Positions 38,619 to 48,155 of a stretch of 64,000 bases of DNA are shown one piece after another (positions within the stretch are counted from its first letter, which is position 1; each line of letters starts with the position of its first letter). The stretch comes from Nevskiaceae bacterium (GTDB lineage: Bacteria > Pseudomonadota > Gammaproteobacteria > Steroidobacterales > Steroidobacteraceae). The stretch is taken from contig VEQP01000012.1 in the NCBI GenBank assembly GCA_018883185.1, positions 1 through 64,000 on the forward strand, given 5' to 3'. A program made the translations under genes and the position numbers. Under the pieces are notes generated by a model, which ran no database searches, was not told the DNA's origin, and saw only the letters and a program-made list of their open reading frames with translations.

Positions 38619-39998
38619 TCACCTCACTGATGGGATCTGCAGCGCGATCCCATAACGGGTCAATACATCGAGCGCGGCCTCTATCGACCCCAGCCGCTTG
38701 ACCTTGGCAAACCGCTCGCCCGTGGTCGTGTCGTGGAAGATTGAGAGCGCTGCATCCGTCTCTCCCAACTGATACCGAATCGTCTCGACTGCAGCAAAGA
38801 TTTCCCGGCTACGGGCGTCGCCCGACTCGTGTGCACGGTGCAGCATCCACAAGGACTCATGCAGCACTATATTCGGCGACGGATCTCCGCGTACGCACCA
38901 GAACTCGACTCGGCCCGGATAAGTGGCAAGGGTCCGAAGAGCGCCTTCGACACCCGTACCGCTGCCGGTCATATTCAGCACATAGAAATCGGGTACGTGG
39001 CGTCGATCCAGCACGGGATAACTCACGCCCGGCTTGAGCCGGGAAATCCCCCCAACGCGATATCCGCCCGCTGCATCGGCGGCTCGCAACTCGCGCGAAT
39101 AAGGCAAGCGGGCTTTACGCTCGGTGCAGTAATCGATCGCCTCGTGATACGAGTAACCGTAGTTCGGCGAGCCCGGGTCGGTCCGCGCGGGATTGGTTGG
39201 CATGGCGATCCATTCGAGCTCGCTACGCGCTTCGTCCCAACCCGGGTAAACGTTCGACTGGAAGTAGTCGAATACGCGGCTCGCCAATACCTCTACAGTT
39301 CTAGTCAAAGTGCCGCGAGTCGAGAAACTGCGGTTCGTACCCGTCTTAAAGTTCTGAATATGCAGCGTGAGTTGGAACTCGTTGCCACCCATCGAAGTGA
39401 AAGAGCCGTAGGCCGTAAAGTCGATCTGCCGGTAGACGCGTACCGCCTGGTCGAGCCGTGCGGGTTTGTCCTTGGCACGACCCTCGATATAAGCACGAAA
39501 TCCCGCCGGATCCGATCCGGCGGAGAACTGCAGCCGACGCTCATTCGGTCGCAGTTGGTGCACCACGTACATTCGATCGAGCGCGGCTTTGAACTGGTTC
39601 TCCAGCAACACGTCGATCGCTTTTTCGTCGCGCGCTCGATGCAGGTCACGCATCATGTCGAAGGTGAGCAGGATGTTCGCCAAGGGCTCGCTCATGGCCG
39701 AGACATCCGCACCGGAAGCCGCGAGATTCTCCAAAGTCGCACTCAGTTCGCGGAAATTCTCGCGACGCACGCGATCGCGTCGAGTCGCAAGTGTGGCTTC
39801 GTATTGGGCGACGTCGGCAGCCGGGTAGAATGGCACCGTGCTCCATAAGACGAGCGGTTGCTTGCCTTGAGTCATGAAGCCGTCATCGACGGCATTACTC
39901 GATGCTGCCATTGCTGAGGAACAGGCCAACGACAGTAGCCAGAGCAAGCCAACGCAGTGACGGATGCGAAATGAATTTCGAAGTGGCATGCAGGTCAA
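38619..39998 (-). CDS. secreted protein of unknown function with weak FGE/DUF1566-like C-terminal pattern
   Basis: Signal peptide (GLLWLLSLACSSAMAA); YGYSYHEAIDYCTERKARLPYSRELRAADAAGGYRVGG...VEFWCVRGDPS. Confidence 0.6.
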   Translation of the reverse strand: MTCMPLRNSFRIRHCVGLLWLLSLACSSAMAASSNAVDDGFMTQGKQPLVLWSTVPFYPAADVAQYEATLATRRDRVRRENFRELSATLENLAASGADVSAMSEPLANILLTFDMMRDLHRARDEKAIDVLLENQFKAALDRMYVVHQLRPNERRLQFSAGSDPAGFRAYIEGRAKDKPARLDQAVRVYRQIDFTAYGSFTSMGGNEFQLTLHIQNFKTGTNRSFSTRGTLTRTVEVLASRVFDYFQSNVYPGWDEARSELEWIAMPTNPARTDPGSPNYGYSYHEAIDYCTERKARLPYSRELRAADAAGGYRVGGISRLKPGVSYPVLDRRHVPDFYVLNMTGSGTGVEGALRTLATYPGRVEFWCVRGDPSPNIVLHESLWMLHRAHESGDARSREIFAAVETIRYQLGETDAALSIFHDTTTGERFAKVKRLGSIEAALDVLTRYGIALQIPSVR

Positions 39999-40546
39999 GG
40001 CAGCGTCGAGGTGTCGCAGGAGCGTGATGATGAGCGCGACAGAACGGTCCCTACGAAAGCCAGCCGATCATCCGCCATCCGGACGATCGCCACGCGCTCC
40101 GTGATTCGGTCACGCAACTGCGTCGTTGTACTGCCGGGAGCAGCCATCGACAACTCGGTGGTGAATTGCTTGAGGGGCTGCGGCAACATTTGTGACAGCA
40201 ACGCAACCTCAGTCTCGCCTTGCTCTTCGAGATAATGGGTGAACTCACTGGAGCGAAATACGGTTTCATTGAGGCCGAATCGGTACTGCAAGATCACACT
40301 CGCCTTGGCGATACACACCTCGGTGGCGGCGAAGGCGCTTTGCATCTCGCGCTGCTCGCCGAGCACGCACTGCTCTAGCGCAGGCAGTAGATTACGCTGC
40401 AGCATGAAGCGTTCGATGTGATGCTCGTTGCGGATCAACTGAAGATCGACGCGGCGCGCCGAATCCTGAGCAGCAGCAGTCGCCGACCAACCTGTGCTGC
40501 CCATCATCAGGATCACACACAATATTGATCGCTTGGGGTATCGCAT
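39995..40546 (-). CDS. secreted protein of unknown function
   Basis: MRYPKRSILCVILMMGSTGWSATAAAQ signal; GGGAGG SD before ATG at 40546; 4-bp overlap with next gene. Confidence 0.7.
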   Translation of the reverse strand: MRYPKRSILCVILMMGSTGWSATAAAQDSARRVDLQLIRNEHHIERFMLQRNLLPALEQCVLGEQREMQSAFAATEVCIAKASVILQYRFGLNETVFRSSEFTHYLEEQGETEVALLSQMLPQPLKQFTTELSMAAPGSTTTQLRDRITERVAIVRMADDRLAFVGTVLSRSSSRSCDTSTLP

Positions 40547-40636
40547 GCCGTCCTCCCGAACCACGGTGGCAACCCGCCTTCCAGTGTGGGGCGGATGCGT
40601 CGCCCTGTCATGCGGGCAACTACTTATGCCCGCCGC

Positions 40637-41410
40637 CTATCGACCGCCACGCAAACCCCGCAACCAGCCTGCGGCATCCTCGCCACGCTCGAGTACCTCG
40701 ACGAGTGCCGAACCCACCACGACGCCTTCGACATGACCCCGAAGCCGCTCGATCTGGTCGGCTGAACGGATGCCGAAGCCGGCGCATACCGGAACCGGGG
40801 AGGCAGCGCGAACTCGGGCCAAATACTCGATCACGGCCTCCGGAACCGCCACGCTCTTGCCCGTGGTGCCGGTCATGGTGACCGCATAGACAAAACCCTC
40901 ACTGGCGGCGCAAACACGTGCGAGGCGCTCTGGCGTGGTCACCGGAGTCACCATCTGCACGAGGGCAACGCCTTCCGCGGCCAGTGCCGCGCGAAACTCG
41001 TCACCCTCGTCGAATGGCAAATCCGGAACGATGAAACCGCAAACGCCTGCAGCCGCTGCGTCGCGGGCGAGCCGTACGTAGCCGTATTGCAGCAGCGGAT
41101 TGAGATAGCTCATCAACACGAGCGGCGCCTCGGGGCGTTGCATCGCGGCAAGTTCGGCGAGGATCCACTTCAGACTTACGCCCTGCTTCAATGCCGACTG
41201 ACTCGAACGCTGTATCGTCATGCCATCGGCCATCGGATCCGTGAAAGGCACACCGATCTCGACGACGTCGGCAACGGAAGCCACGGCTTGCAGATGCTCG
41301 GAGAACTTGTCGATCTGCGGAAACCCTGCAGTCATGAACGCTACGAGTGCGGGCTCACCGCGATCGACGGCAGCGCGAATAGCACTGCTTAAACGGGCAT
41401 GAGGCTTCAT
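40637..41410 (-). CDS. trpA: tryptophan synthase alpha chain
   Basis: [56 protein letters not shown]. Confidence 0.97.
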
Positions 41411-42660
41411 GGCTTCGCTCCGGCAAGCAGAGTACGCTGCAAAGTCGGCATGTCTTTATCGCCGCGTCCCGACATACAAAGAATGGCCGTCTTGCCGGGG
41501 TTCGAAGCGGCCCAGCGCTTGGCACCGTGCAGCGCGTGCGCCGTTTCCAAGGCAGGCAGAATACCCTCGAGACGCGAGCACTCCTGCAACGCCGCGAGTG
41601 CTTCGGCATCGGTCGCCGACTCGTAATGCACTCGCCCGGCCGCTAACAGTAGCGCGTGCTCAGGTCCGACTCCGGGGTAATCCAGCCCCGCGGAGATCGA
41701 ATCCGTTTCGTGGATCTGGCCGTTCTCATCCTGCAGTAGCAGCGAGTAGCAGCCCTGCAGAACACCAGGCCAACCATAGGAGAGACTCGCGGCGTTCTCG
41801 CCGAGACCCGTGCCACGCCCGCCGGCCTCGATACCGATGATGGCGACGGAACTATCGGGCACGAACGCATGAAACATACCGATCGAATTGGAGCCGCCTC
41901 CCACACATGCAAATACGGCATCAGGCAGCGCCCCGGTGCGCTCCAAGAACTGCGCGCGCGCCTCGCGACCGATGATCGCCTGCAACTCGCGTACGAGGTA
42001 AGGATAAGGATGCGGGCCGACCGCCGAGCCGAGTAGATAGAACGTGCCATCGGGATCTGCGACCCAATCGCGCAAGGCTTCGTCGATGGCAGCGCGCAGC
42101 GTTTGGTCGCCGCCCGTCACCGGCACCACCTCGGCACCGAGCAGACGCATGCGCCCGACGTTGGGCGCCTGTCGTTCCATATCGATCGCACCCATGTACA
42201 CCGTGCAAGGCAGACCGAGGCGGGCGCAGGCTGCCGCACTCGCGACACCATGCTGACCCGCGCCGGTTTCGGCAACAATGCGCCGGGCACCGAGGCGCTG
42301 TGCGAGCAATGCCTGCCCGAGCGCGTTGTTGATCTTGTGGGCCCCCGTGTGCGCGAGGTCCTCGCGCTTGAACCAGATGGACGCGCCCCAAGCCGCCGAC
42401 AATCTCGGTGCGTACGACAGGGCCGTGGGCCGACCGACCCAGTGCAGCAACTGGTCGCTGAGCTCGGCCTGAAAGTCCGCGCGGTGCAAATGCTCGCGCA
42501 TGCCCGCCTCGAGGCGCTCGAGCGCAGGAATCAAAGTCTCCGGCACATAACGGCCACCATAGGGTCCGAACCGACCCCGCGCATCGGGGAAGCGGCCGGC
42601 GAGTTCCTGCTCGAGCAAAGCATTCTTCTCGGCAACCGAAAACTTGACGTTGGCATTCAT
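41407..42660 (-). CDS. trpB: tryptophan synthase beta chain
   Basis: [85 protein letters not shown]. Confidence 0.98.
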
Positions 42661-43253
42661 GCTGGGTTCTCCGCAGCGGCTGCACGCGCAGCACGCACAA
42701 ATTCTTGGATACGCGTGGCGCATTTGCGCCCAGGCTCCGACTCGATGCCGCTCGATACGTCGACGCCGAATGGCTGCACTGCACGGATCGCCGTAGCGAC
42801 GTTACCCGAATGCAGTCCGCCCGCAAGGATCAGTTGCGTCGTCGACGCAAGCGATCGCGCCCTCGTCCAGTCCGCGGCCTCACCGGCACCGCTGACTGGC
42901 CCCTCGAATAGCACTCGGCTGGGCAGTGACTCGGGCAACGCTTGGCCGCTGCGCAGTACGGGCCACCACCTCCGCTTCGCCTCGAGCGAGAGCGCCGCTT
43001 CGTCAGCCAGATCGGTTTGCAGCGCATCCGGTACGAACTCCTGCATGACCTCACTCACCTCGGCCGCAGTCGGGTGCAACATCACCGCCACACAGCACGC
43101 GCGACCTCGCGCAGGTGTCGCGAGCCGCCGCGCCTCGGCTGGCGAAACGCGTCGGATCGACGGCGCGAACACGAAGCCAAGCGCATCAGCTCCGGCCTCA
43201 AGAGCCGCCGCGACGGCCGCTTCAGTGTTCATGCCACAGAGTTTCACGAACAT
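42657..43253 (-). CDS. trpF: phosphoribosylanthranilate isomerase
   Basis: [66 protein letters not shown]. Confidence 0.97.
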
Positions 43254-43259
43254 CGTCCT

Positions 43260-44156
43260 TCACGCGCTCCTTAAGAGCCCGGTTCGGGCCCGGTGTCCGC
43301 GCGCAGTCCGGCCGGACTGCAACATGTCTTCGACGAGGTGCTGTGGCGTCGGATGCGTCATCAGCGCACCGCCTACGAGCGCGAGGTCGTAGCCCGCTGC
43401 TGCTGCCGCTGCCGCATCGGCCGCGGATAGCACACCGCTCTCCGCGACGCGCGCAATCCAACCCGGCAAATACGGTGCCAGTGTTACAAACCGATCGGGA
43501 ATCACCTTCAAGCTGACGAGGTCGCGACAGTTCACGCCGAGCAGCAGACGCAGGCCACCGTTCCGCGTGTGCATGTCGGCTTGACGGGGTTCAAGCAGAG
43601 CGATAGCCGCCTCGATGTCATGTTCATCGAAGGCCTCGAGCAACACGAACAAGCCCTGCGCCAACGCCACCTCGAGCAATGCTTCCAGCTCATCACGCGA
43701 CAACATGCGCACGATCAGCAACACTCCGCCTGCGCCTGCGGCACGTGCCTCGAGTACCTGATACGGATCGACCAGAAAATCTTTGCGCATAGCTGGGACC
43801 GCACGCGGACCACGAGCCTCAAGGCGCGCTGCGGCCTGCTGCAGATGGTCGAGCGCGCCATCAAAACGCGTGGGTTCGGTCAGCACCGAAATCGCTGCAG
43901 CACCACCGTCCGCATAGGCGTCGATGCGTGCCTCCGCAGCGAAATCAGTCGAAGCCTGCAACGCGCCGAGCGCCGGTGAGCGCAACTTCATCTCCGCGAT
44001 CAGATCGAACCCCGCGCTCGACAGGCGCAATTCGACTGCAGCTGGCCGCGTTGCGATTCGCTCACGCAGCACCGATTCTGGCGTTATTTCTTTGGCGAAA
44101 GCGACCCGCAAACGCGAGCTTTCCGCCATGCCAGCGAGAAAATCTCCGCTCTTCAC
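43260..44156 (-). CDS. trpC: indole-3-glycerol phosphate synthase
   Basis: IAEMKLRSPALG, ISVLTEPTRFDGALDHL, RKDFLVDPYQVLEARAAGAGGVLLIV, GVNCRDLVSLKV, VAESGVLSAADA. Confidence 0.97.
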   Translation of the reverse strand: MKSGDFLAGMAESSRLRVAFAKEITPESVLRERIATRPAAVELRLSSAGFDLIAEMKLRSPALGALQASTDFAAEARIDAYADGGAAAISVLTEPTRFDGALDHLQQAAARLEARGPRAVPAMRKDFLVDPYQVLEARAAGAGGVLLIVRMLSRDELEALLEVALAQGLFVLLEAFDEHDIEAAIALLEPRQADMHTRNGGLRLLLGVNCRDLVSLKVIPDRFVTLAPYLPGWIARVAESGVLSAADAAAAAAAGYDLALVGGALMTHPTPQHLVEDMLQSGRTARGHRARTGLLRSA

Positions 44157-45199
44157 GGCTTGCGCACCCCGTGACCGAACGCCGCGAGTTCCTCGAGCAC
44201 TTGGGCGGCCCGGCCCGAATCGATCGCATCGGCGGCGACTTGCAGACCTGCCATAGGATCAGCTGCGACCCCGGCGCACTCTAGAGCCAGCGATGCGCCG
44301 AGCAGCAGTGCATCACGATGCCCGCCCCGATCCTCACCGCGCAGCACAGCACGCAGCGCAGCAGCGTTGACGATGGCATCACCGCCTGCGAGTTCCTCGG
44401 CACGGCAACGGCTCAAACCATAGTCCTCGGGGCGCCGCAGGCTACGGCGCACCTGCCCGGCGTATACATCGAAGAGCGTGAACTCGCAGATCGGCGTGGG
44501 CTCATCCCAGCCATTGGCCGCATGCACGACGAACGCCCGCTTGAGTCCCGGCATGCGTGCCAGCGCATCGGCCATCAAGGAGGCCACCGGCTCGCTGAAC
44601 GCCCCGGTGAGCTGATATGCCGGTGCGGCAGGGTTAGTGAGTGGTCCGAGAACGTTGAATATGGTGCGAATCCCGAGAGCCTGTCGTACCGGCGCGATCG
44701 CCTTCATCGCCGGGTGGTAGTAGGGCGCGAACAAAAATGTAAAGCCGCTGCGCGCCAGACACTCGCCCGCCTGCAAATCATCAAGCGGCAGCGGCAAGCC
44801 GAGTTGCTCAAGCACATCAGCACTGCCGGAGCGACTCGATACCGAGCGATTGCCATGCTTGATGACGGGCGCACCGCAGGCGGCGACGAGCAGAGCCGTA
44901 CCGGTAGACACATTGACGCTGCCCGAAGCGTCGCCGCCGGTGCCGACGATATCTATGGCACGGCCTGCGAGTTCGGCATCGATCGCAGGACGACGGGCAA
45001 GCGCGCGCATCGCTCGGGCAAAACCGCGCAACTCGTCCGCCACTACGCCCTTGGCACGCAAGGCGGCCAGCAGCGCGCCGGCCAGCGCAGGCGGCACTTC
45101 GGTGGTCAGCGCAGTGAGCACCGTCGACGACTGTGCCTCAGTCAGATCATGCCGCTCCAGCAATTGCTCGAGCGTCGCCCGCAGCGCCTTGTCATCCAT
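44153..45199 (-). CDS. trpD: anthranilate phosphoribosyltransferase
   Basis: [66 protein letters not shown]. Confidence 0.98.
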
Positions 45200-45818
45200 G
45201 GCCGGGCGTTCCCTCGCGCCGTGCGCTGCGTTGGCGCAGGAAATTCGCCATCAGCGCAGGCCCATCGGGCGTCAGTACGCTCTCCGGGTGAAATTGCACG
45301 CCTTCAACCACGAGCGTTCGATGGCGCAAACCCATGATTTCACCTTCAGCGGTGCGCGCCGTAACGACGAGCTCCAGAGGCAGCGACTCCGGCTGGGCAA
45401 TCAAAGAATGATACCGGCCGACTTCGCAAGGGTCAGGCAGGCCCGCAAACAGACCTTGTCCGTCGTGCGTGACCATCGAGGTTTTGCCGTGCATCAATCG
45501 CCCCGCGCGCACCACTTTGCCACCGAACACCTCGGTGATCGATTGGTGACCCAAGCAAACGCCGAATACCGGCACGACGCCTGCGAAGGCACGAATCATA
45601 TCCATCGACACACCAGCGTCATAGGGCGTGCCTGGCCCCGGGGAAATGCACAGATGCGTCGGTGCCAAGGCCATCGCCTGCGGCACGCTCAGCGCATCGT
45701 TGCGATGCACGACCACCTCGGCACCGAGCACGAGAAAAGCCTGCACCAGGTTGTAGGTGAAAGAGTCGTAGTTATCGATGAGCAGCAGCCGCACGCCCTG
45801 CCCGGCCGCACCGGTCAT
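45192..45818 (-). CDS. trpG: anthranilate synthase component II
   Basis: [53 protein letters not shown]. Confidence 0.97.
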
Positions 45819-47209
45819 AACCCTTCCCCCGCCATGGCAAGCGCACGCGCGGCCGATCCGCTTTTCGCCAGCACCTCTTCGTACTCGCTCTGCGGATGGC
45901 TGTCGGCCACGATGCCGGCACCCGCTTGGTAGCTGTACTCGTCGCCGCGGAACACCAGCGTACGAATAGTGATGGCCTGATCCATGTCGCCTTGCGCGCC
46001 GAAGTATCCGACCGTTCCGCCGTAGAGACCGCGCCGCACGGGTTCGAGTTCGTCAATGATTTCCATGGCGCGCACCTTGGGGGCGCCCACCAGCGTGCCG
46101 GCAGGGAACGCAGCGGCGAATAAGTCGAACGCATCACGCCCGGCGGCCAGTTCACCGCGCACGCCGCTCACCATATGCATCACATGGCTGTAACGCTCGA
46201 TGGAACGATACGGTCCGACGTGCACGCTGCCCGGTTTCGCCACGCGACCGAGATCGTTGCGCGCGAGATCCACCAGCATGACGTGCTCGGCATTTTCTTT
46301 GGCATCGGCCAGTAGCTCGCGCTCGCGACGCTGATCCTCCGCCTCGTCGGCAGCGCGCGGCCGGGTACCTGCGATAGGTCGCAGCTGCGCCTGGCCGTGC
46401 GAAAGTTTCACCAGTGCCTCAGGTGACGAACCCACCACGGTGACGTCATCCATGGCGCAGTAGTACATGTACGGCGACGGATTGATCAGTCGCAGCGCCC
46501 TGTAGGCCTCAAAAGGATCGATATCCGCACGACCACCGAAACGCACGGAGAGCACCAACTGATAGACGTCGCCTGCGGCAATGTATTCCTTGGTGCGCGC
46601 CACACCGGCAAGAAACTGCGCCTCGGACATCGATGCCACGGCGGGGGAGAATGCCCCTCTTGCCTGCCCCGTCGGCACGGCCCCGCGCAGCGCCGAGATC
46701 ACCTCGCGGCGCAAGGACTGGCGCTCGCTCTCACTTCCGGCATGCAATAACGCAATGCCTCGCGTGAGGTGATCGAACACGAGTAACGAGGCGGGAGCGA
46801 CGTAGTGCAGGTCGGGCATCGCATCAGGCGCGGGCGTCATCGGTCGCAGACGCTCGAAGTAGCGCACGATGTCGTAGGACGAGTAGCCCACGAGTCCGCC
46901 TGCCAGCGGGAAATCGGCCCCGGCGCCCGGCGCCTGCGGCCGCGGTGCCCGGCTCAGCGCGGCGCGTAACGCTTGCAGCAACTCGGTCTGATCGGCGGGC
47001 ACCTTCCAACGCTCGCTGCCACTCCAGAACCCTTGTGCATTGAGCTTGACGCGGAACGACGCGTCACCGAAACCAATGAACGAATAGCGGCCAACCCGCT
47101 CGCCGCCTTCCACACTCTCGAGCAGAAAGTGTGGGCGGAACGCACGCAGTTTCAGAAACGCCGAAACGGGCGTATCGAGATCACCGGCAATGTCGAATGG
47201 TGCCTTCAT
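45815..47209 (-). CDS. trpE: anthranilate synthase component I
   Basis: [72 protein letters not shown]. Confidence 0.97.
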
Positions 47210-47210
47210 G

Positions 47211-47248
47211 AAACAAAAAACCCATCCCGGAGTGCGTCCGGAGATGGG
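47211..47248 (-). terminator. trp attenuator terminator hairpin
   Basis: Minus strand CCCATC-T-CCGG-ACGCACT-CCGG-GATGGG followed by TTTTTTG; ends just before trpE ATG. Confidence 0.9.
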
Positions 47249-47310
47249 TTTGGGTTGCTAGATCCTGTTTGTACTGTTCGTTGCCGAACGCAGCGTCCCA
47301 CGCCCACTCC
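47240..47310 (-). promoter_or_regulatory. predicted antiterminator pairing of the trp attenuator
   Basis: Minus strand GGAGTGGGCGTGGG (47297-47310) can pair with CCCAAACCCATCTCC (47240-47254), which includes the terminator 5' arm. Confidence 0.7.
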
Positions 47311-47311
47311 T

Positions 47312-47359
47312 TCAGGAGCGGCGCCACCAATGCAGCCAAGGACGAGCGATACCGGTCAT
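47312..47359 (-). CDS. trpL: trp leader peptide MTGIARPWLHWWRRS
   Basis: Codon-by-codon reading of ATG ACC GGT ATC GCT CGT CCT TGG CTG CAT TGG TGG CGC CGC TCC TGA; three Trp codons upstream of the attenuator. Confidence 0.9.
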   Translation of the reverse strand: MTGIARPWLHWWRRS

Positions 47360-47365
47360 GGCTTG

Positions 47366-47395
47366 AGTATCGCCGTCGGCTCAAAGCGCCGTCAA
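47366..47395 (-). promoter_or_regulatory. candidate trp operon promoter (TTGACG-N18-GATACT)
   Basis: -35-like TTGACG (47390-47395), 18-bp spacer, -10-like GATACT (47366-47371), 6 nt before trpL ATG. Confidence 0.55.
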
Positions 47396-47468: not shown

Positions 47469-48155
47469 GTGCGCCGCTACGGACTGATGCTATTTGCGAT
47501 TGCCGCGACATTAATCGTCGTATTTCAATCCAATGCGCGAGAGAGCTATTTCGAACCTGCGCCCCTCGCCCGCGACACGTTGGAGACCCTCGAGGTCAAA
47601 GGAAAGGCGCCGAAAACGGGTTACTCGCGGGAAGCATTTGGCCCGAGATGGGCGGACACTGACCGAAACGGCTGCGATACGCGCAACGACGTCTTGAGGC
47701 GAGACCTGGCCGACTCCCTGATCAGAACAGCGAACAGGAACTGCGTTGTGCTGGAGGGGGTTCTGCAGTGCCCATATTCCGGTGAGAAAATTGTTTTCAG
47801 ACGTGGACCCGGCAGCAGCGAGCAAGCGCAGATCGATCATGTGGTATCGCTGTCCAACGCTTGGCAAACGGGCATGCTGCAGCGAACGTCGAGTGAGCGG
47901 CGTAATTTTGCGAACGACACGCTGAACCTGCTGGCAGTCAAAGGGTCACTCAACTCGCAAAAAGGCGATGGCGACGCTGCGACCTGGTTGCCGCCAAGAC
48001 GGGCCTACCGTTGCGACTTCGTGGCGCGCCAAGTAGCCGTGAAAAAACGCTACCGTCTCTGGGTCACCCCCGCTGAAAAAGAAGCCATGCTTCGGGTTTT
48101 GAAAACCTGTCCTAATCAACGGATTCCCACGGATCGCGTCGGCGTATCGACTTAG
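47469..48155 (+). CDS. HNH endonuclease family protein (DUF1524), secreted or anchored
   Basis: IDHVVSLSNAWQTG, FANDTLNLLAVKGSLNSQKGDGDAATWLPP; N-terminal hydrophobic segment; GTG start. Confidence 0.85.
   Translation: MRRYGLMLFAIAATLIVVFQSNARESYFEPAPLARDTLETLEVKGKAPKTGYSREAFGPRWADTDRNGCDTRNDVLRRDLADSLIRTANRNCVVLEGVLQCPYSGEKIVFRRGPGSSEQAQIDHVVSLSNAWQTGMLQRTSSERRNFANDTLNLLAVKGSLNSQKGDGDAATWLPPRRAYRCDFVARQVAVKKRYRLWVTPAEKEAMLRVLKTCPNQRIPTDRVGVST

Follow-up and report, generated by a model that had tools for sequence, protein, structure and literature searches.

A probable ribosome-mediated trp attenuator upstream of the trpEGDCFBA operon in Steroidobacteraceae, with a trpL mRNA predicted to be leaderless

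In Escherichia coli, trpL is preceded by a 5' UTR with a Shine-Dalgarno (SD) sequence, the operon is subject to TrpR repression, and trpE has its own SD downstream of the terminator. Leaderless trpL mRNAs have been documented in Sinorhizobium meliloti, where the trpL peptide and sRNA also have known functions in trans (PMC7298713), and in Streptomyces lividans (PMC8079986). We found no gammaproteobacterial report of a leaderless trpL in the open literature, which does not show absence. Here we analyse a 64,000-nucleotide stretch of DNA (the window) from the 2.8 Mb metagenome-assembled genome (MAG) of a freshwater member of the Steroidobacteraceae. The reading that we favor, with a probability of about 0.93, is that a ribosome-mediated transcription attenuator controls trpEGDCFBA and acts on a leaderless or nearly leaderless trpL mRNA. 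The features on which this reading is built are collected in Table 1.

Table 1. Features of the attenuator region and of the trp genes behind it (positions in the window).
Feature	Position	Strand	Basis or remark
-35 box TTGACG, trpL/trpE promoter	47390-47395	-	TTGAC[GCT] kept in nearly all relatives
-10 box GATACT	47366-47371	-	18 nt past the -35 box; 6 nt before the trpL ATG
trpL leader ORF, MTGIARPWLHWWRRS and stop	47312-47359	-	sequence; WW/WWW in orthologues
Segment 1, CGCCGCTCC / CGCCGCUCC	47315-47323	-	pairs with segment 2 (anti-antiterminator); 1:2 hairpin -15.9 kcal/mol
Segment 2, GGAGTGGGCGTGGG / GGAGUGGGCGUGGG	47297-47310	-	partner is segment 1 or segment 3
Segment 3, CCCAAACCCATCTCC / CCCAAACCCAUCUCC	47240-47254	-	pairs with segment 2 (antiterminator) or segment 4
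Terminator 5' arm, CCCATCTCCGG / CCCAUCUCCGG	47238-47248	-	alignment and folding
Segment 4, terminator 3' arm CCGGGATGGG / CCGGGAUGGG (47230-47221) and U6 (47220-47215)	47215-47230	-	
trpE, anthranilate synthase component I	45815-47209	-	NCBIfam; ATG 5 nt past the U run
trpG	45192-45818	-	NCBIfam
trpD	44153-45199	-	NCBIfam
trpC	43260-44156	-	NCBIfam
trpF	42657-43253	-	NCBIfam
trpB	41407-42723	-	NCBIfam; mechanical start, 67 nt overlap with trpF
trpA	40637-41410	-	NCBIfam

Upstream of trpE, as far as the divergent gene at 47469, the minus strand reads as a promoter-like pair of boxes, six bases, trpL and segment 2; after a further 42 nt come segment 3, segment 4 with its U6, the bases GTTTC and the trpE ATG at 47209. 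An intrinsic terminator thus lies between the leader ORF and the first structural gene, and it ends 5 nt before the trpE ATG, as the preliminary description of this locus had it. The same description placed a single trpEGDCFBA operon behind the attenuator, and all seven genes were indeed matched by NCBIfam; they form one compact run with several overlaps of 4-8 nt, and they make the very amino acid that the leader would sense. The true trpB start is probably further downstream than the mechanical one. The TrpE of the order scores 486 bits (window gene 45815-47209), under the TIGR00564 cut-off of 517.7, and shares only about 40-50% identity with TrpE of other Gammaproteobacteria; it seems to form a TrpE lineage of its own. 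Directly downstream of trpA, two ORFs of 459 and 189 aa (38619-40564, minus) are without Pfam or NCBIfam match and may be either unknown genes or spurious. The divergent neighbour of the operon (47469-48155, plus) encodes a small protein in which Pfam recognises a GmrSD_C domain (72.9 bits).

The leader ORF begins with an ATG at 47359 and ends with a TGA at 47314-47312. Its Trp codons are at positions 8 (47338-47336), 11 (47329-47327) and 12 (47326-47324), and the earlier reading of the attenuator proved correct base for base. It is therefore a short, predicted-translated leader ORF with tandem Trp codons, as in the attenuator class, and these codons, on whose conservation in orthologues the proposal hung, are conserved. 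In nearly all intact loci of relatives, the leader upstream of trpE ends in WW(W)RxS or similar and is followed by GGAGTGGGCG and then by CCAGAACCCATCTCCGG...CCGGGATGGGTTTTTT; the N-terminal half of the peptide varies in sequence and length while the Trp codons are kept. Across the order, nearly every relative examined has the same combination ahead of trpE: a leader of the WW/WWW(R)xS type, segment 2 and the terminator. These relatives include named Steroidobacteraceae contigs (L034) and, at a greater distance, Woeseiaceae. In other sampled Gammaproteobacteria, a rough scan that yielded few leaders showed mostly the WRW type near trpE, with no promoter at 6-11 nt.

Short ORFs with three Trp codons do arise at random (a mean of 0.77 per randomised window), and a constitutive intrinsic terminator, or an unrelated hairpin, might in principle stand next to a Trp-rich ORF by chance. 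We searched the 64 kb window for short ATG-initiated ORFs with at least three Trp codons, including WW, and with a hairpin and T5 within 130 nt. One such ORF was found, namely trpL, whereas none appeared in 60 first-order Markov randomisations. The attenuator is not a product of chance, and its conservation across the order is a stronger argument for this than the randomisation; together with the compensatory changes described below, it contradicts the chance explanation and leaves it very improbable. A covariance model built from 54 loci gave one match in the host genome (E 2.7e-16) and matches in 45 of the 60 relatives, directly upstream of trpE in those compared for position; among 185 genomes sampled class-wide it matched three, all from the same order. 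This compact model is offered for annotating the attenuator in the order.

Covariation, suggested earlier as a check, is evident in both competing helices, which show compensatory changes in the relatives. In alignment A1, 90.4% of cells are paired in the terminator (3:4) and 83.5% in the antiterminator (2:3), with 8 and 22 cells, respectively, changed on both sides; these values were reached by 0/500 and 1/500 shuffles, controls that ignore relatedness and that related sequences can exceed without structure. Slid controls gave 22-67% paired. The exchanges among relatives include A-U to G-C and C-G to U-A in the terminator helix, and, in the distal helix of the antiterminator, C-G / U-A at columns 51-129 (U-A in the window, C-G in sister species) and G-C / U-A at columns 52-128. 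Outside its CUCC/GGAG core, the 1:2 pairing is conserved only partly.

Segment 2 had been proposed to pair either upstream, with codons of the leader, or downstream. Both the 1:2 and the 2:3 helices do fold, the latter with the compensatory changes just described, and antiterminator and terminator are mutually exclusive; segment 3 uses its part 47248-47240, plus GG, to pair with segment 4. With its flanking A-U pairs, the terminator hairpin reaches -21.7 kcal/mol. When the alternative states were folded, ribosome-free RNA adopted 1:2 and 3:4, and a ribosome at the stop codon left 3:4. A ribosome positioned on Trp12 would shield the RNA to about 47312, the Trp12 codon being at 47326 and segment 2 starting from 47310. 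To represent this state, an RNA was folded that begins at 47311 and stops in the 3:4 loop, short of segment 4; it adopts 2:3 (-28.3 kcal/mol). In an equilibrium fold of the full RNA with segment 1 masked, 3:4 is still preferred (-36.1 versus -31.3 kcal/mol with 2:3 enforced). As 3:4 is slightly better than 2:3 at equilibrium, the antitermination choice must be kinetic; such a kinetic decision is the textbook case, as in the E. coli trp attenuator.

From the sequence, its conservation, the compensatory changes and the thermodynamic feasibility of the folds, we infer a transcription start, termination, stalling and a response to Trp that would operate as follows. Transcription would begin with the first base of the trpL ATG or within a few bases of it, and ribosomes would load onto the leaderless, or nearly leaderless, trpL mRNA. 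With ample Trp-tRNA, the ribosome would reach the stop codon and cover segment 2, so that the 3:4 terminator forms before trpE. With scarce Trp-tRNA, it would stall at Trp11/Trp12 and cover segment 1, so that segment 2 can pair with segment 3 and RNA polymerase continues into trpE. Should the ribosome be absent, 1:2 and 3:4 would form and transcription would stop. The conserved Trp codons, the compensatory changes, the folding energies and the way the Trp codons are placed with respect to segments 1 and 2 all support the stalled-ribosome model of the preliminary description. Reinitiation at trpE from trpL was set aside, the trpL stop codon being 102 nt upstream of trpE.

The start of the mRNA is placed by the match to the promoter consensus. 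With six bases between the -10 box and the ATG, transcription is expected to start on the A of that ATG, and the message from which trpL is translated would have no 5' leader, or almost none. Distances from -10 box to start differ by a few bases, and transcription might instead begin further upstream and the ribosome load on an ordinary 5' UTR. Several observations make this quite improbable. No other stretch of the upstream DNA matches the promoter consensus well; in 49 of the 60 loci, a promoter with a score of 9/12 or more stands 6-11 nt before an in-frame leader start (at 6-8 nt in 36 of these), and only one other promoter-like site of that score occurred in 18,000 bp. The distance from the ATG to the tandem Trp codons ranges from 21 to 75 nt across loci, unlike the near-fixed distance between promoter and ATG. 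Finally, pairing energies with the anti-SD gave no convincing SD before trpL, with a median of -2.3 kcal/mol there versus -6.25 kcal/mol before trpE. The near-fixed promoter-ATG distance turns leaderless translation of the leader peptide into a sharp prediction for Gammaproteobacteria.

At the other end of the attenuator, the only SD-like pairing before trpE is GGGAUGG (-7.0 kcal/mol), which lies inside the terminator 3' arm, and it is plausible from this arrangement that the arm also blocks trpE translation. Within the genus of the window, as in the close relatives L001-L012, 0-6 nt lie between the end of the U run and trpE; other lineages mostly have a longer spacer there, often with an SD. 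The attenuator might then act on translation too, with a hairpin re-formed on read-through RNA hiding the only SD-like bases. One relative, L024, may have taken this course: upstream of trpE (about 1350-1500) it keeps the leader MSFHAQTASIRWWWTLS and antiterminator segments, segment 2 included, and just before trpE it has a hairpin without U run over the ribosome-binding region, a possible shift to translational attenuation. On the other hand, about 12 nt separate the SD-like bases from the ATG, a longer distance than is optimal, and the arm is equally conserved where trpE has a separate SD downstream, so that the terminator alone explains its conservation. Moreover, the terminated transcript does not contain trpE, and any translational block would therefore matter on read-through RNA only. 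On balance, we consider a translational layer unlikely, and transcription attenuation remains our preferred reading.

A different loss is seen in L019 / L035, a 1.4 Mb Lake Baikal MAG, where the leader seems to have been deleted naturally: upstream of trpE the promoter TTGACG-18-CATAAT survives, trpL and the attenuator are gone, and a segment 3 relic, ACCCTATCTCTGG, remains before trpE. The natural losses in L019 and L024 are ready-made comparisons.

Since no TrpR was found above cut-off in the 60 relatives, where matches were sub-cut-off only, attenuation may be the main Trp control in these bacteria. An E. coli-like operator is not evident, the promoter spacer, read by eye, varying between relatives. 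The weak TrpR match in the host genome is a TrpR-related protein of the YerC/YecD family (68.7 bits, cut-off 42.2) and not TrpR; its gene is at contig C61:6931-7368 of the genome G000 (L146:632-1069, minus).

The mechanism is an ordinary, well-known kind of switch, and the lineage is new. These findings carry the textbook trp attenuator into an order with few cultured members, where the Rfam model misses it at its own threshold, and they seem to add a modest twist, in that the leader-peptide mRNA would start directly at the first codon. A far bolder reading would have a whole gammaproteobacterial order govern the entire trp operon with no TrpR, by means of an attenuator with a leaderless leader-peptide mRNA. 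In the genus of the window, the terminator arm would double as the trpE ribosome-binding region, so that attenuation would be transcriptional and translational at once, and the RNA set free (about 145 nt) and the peptide might have functions in trans like those in Sinorhizobium. Taken as a whole, we hold this to be a long shot.

Among known attenuators, the Rfam family RF00513 (Trp_leader) scores 29.1 bits over positions 1-100, below its gathering score of 41, and a search at gathering scores gave no match in the window or in 20 relatives. Comparable scores turn up at unrelated places, in 74 of the 185 genomes sampled class-wide and once more elsewhere in the host genome, so this sub-threshold score is weak evidence for an attenuator. 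By the family's own threshold the element is not a member of RF00513, yet it would operate in the manner of its E. coli counterpart, with which it shares tandem Trp codons in a leader of 14-15 aa, segments 1-4 that form mutually exclusive 1:2, 2:3 and 3:4 helices, and a U-tailed terminator before trpE. Unlike in E. coli, here the promoter abuts the trpL ATG, no TrpR is found above cut-off, and the terminator abuts trpE. With trpL/rnTrpL of S. meliloti it shares an mRNA leaderless from the ATG (predicted here), an attenuator before trpE, a short peptide (14 aa there) with consecutive Trp codons and no transcriptional repression by Trp (likewise predicted here); however, S. meliloti is an Alphaproteobacterium, and its attenuator controls only trpE(G) of three trp operons (PMC7298713). 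The trpL1-trpE locus of S. lividans likewise has a leaderless leader peptide (predicted here), theirs being MFAHSTRNWWWTAHPAAH with WWW, as well as hairpins and a U-rich stretch before trpE, but belongs to an Actinobacterium with a monocistronic trpE (PMC8079986). The trp attenuators predicted in Corynebacterium and Streptomyces, although of Actinobacteria, share the double or triple UGG, the GC-rich U-run terminators and overlapping segments conserved across large distances (PMC1262725).
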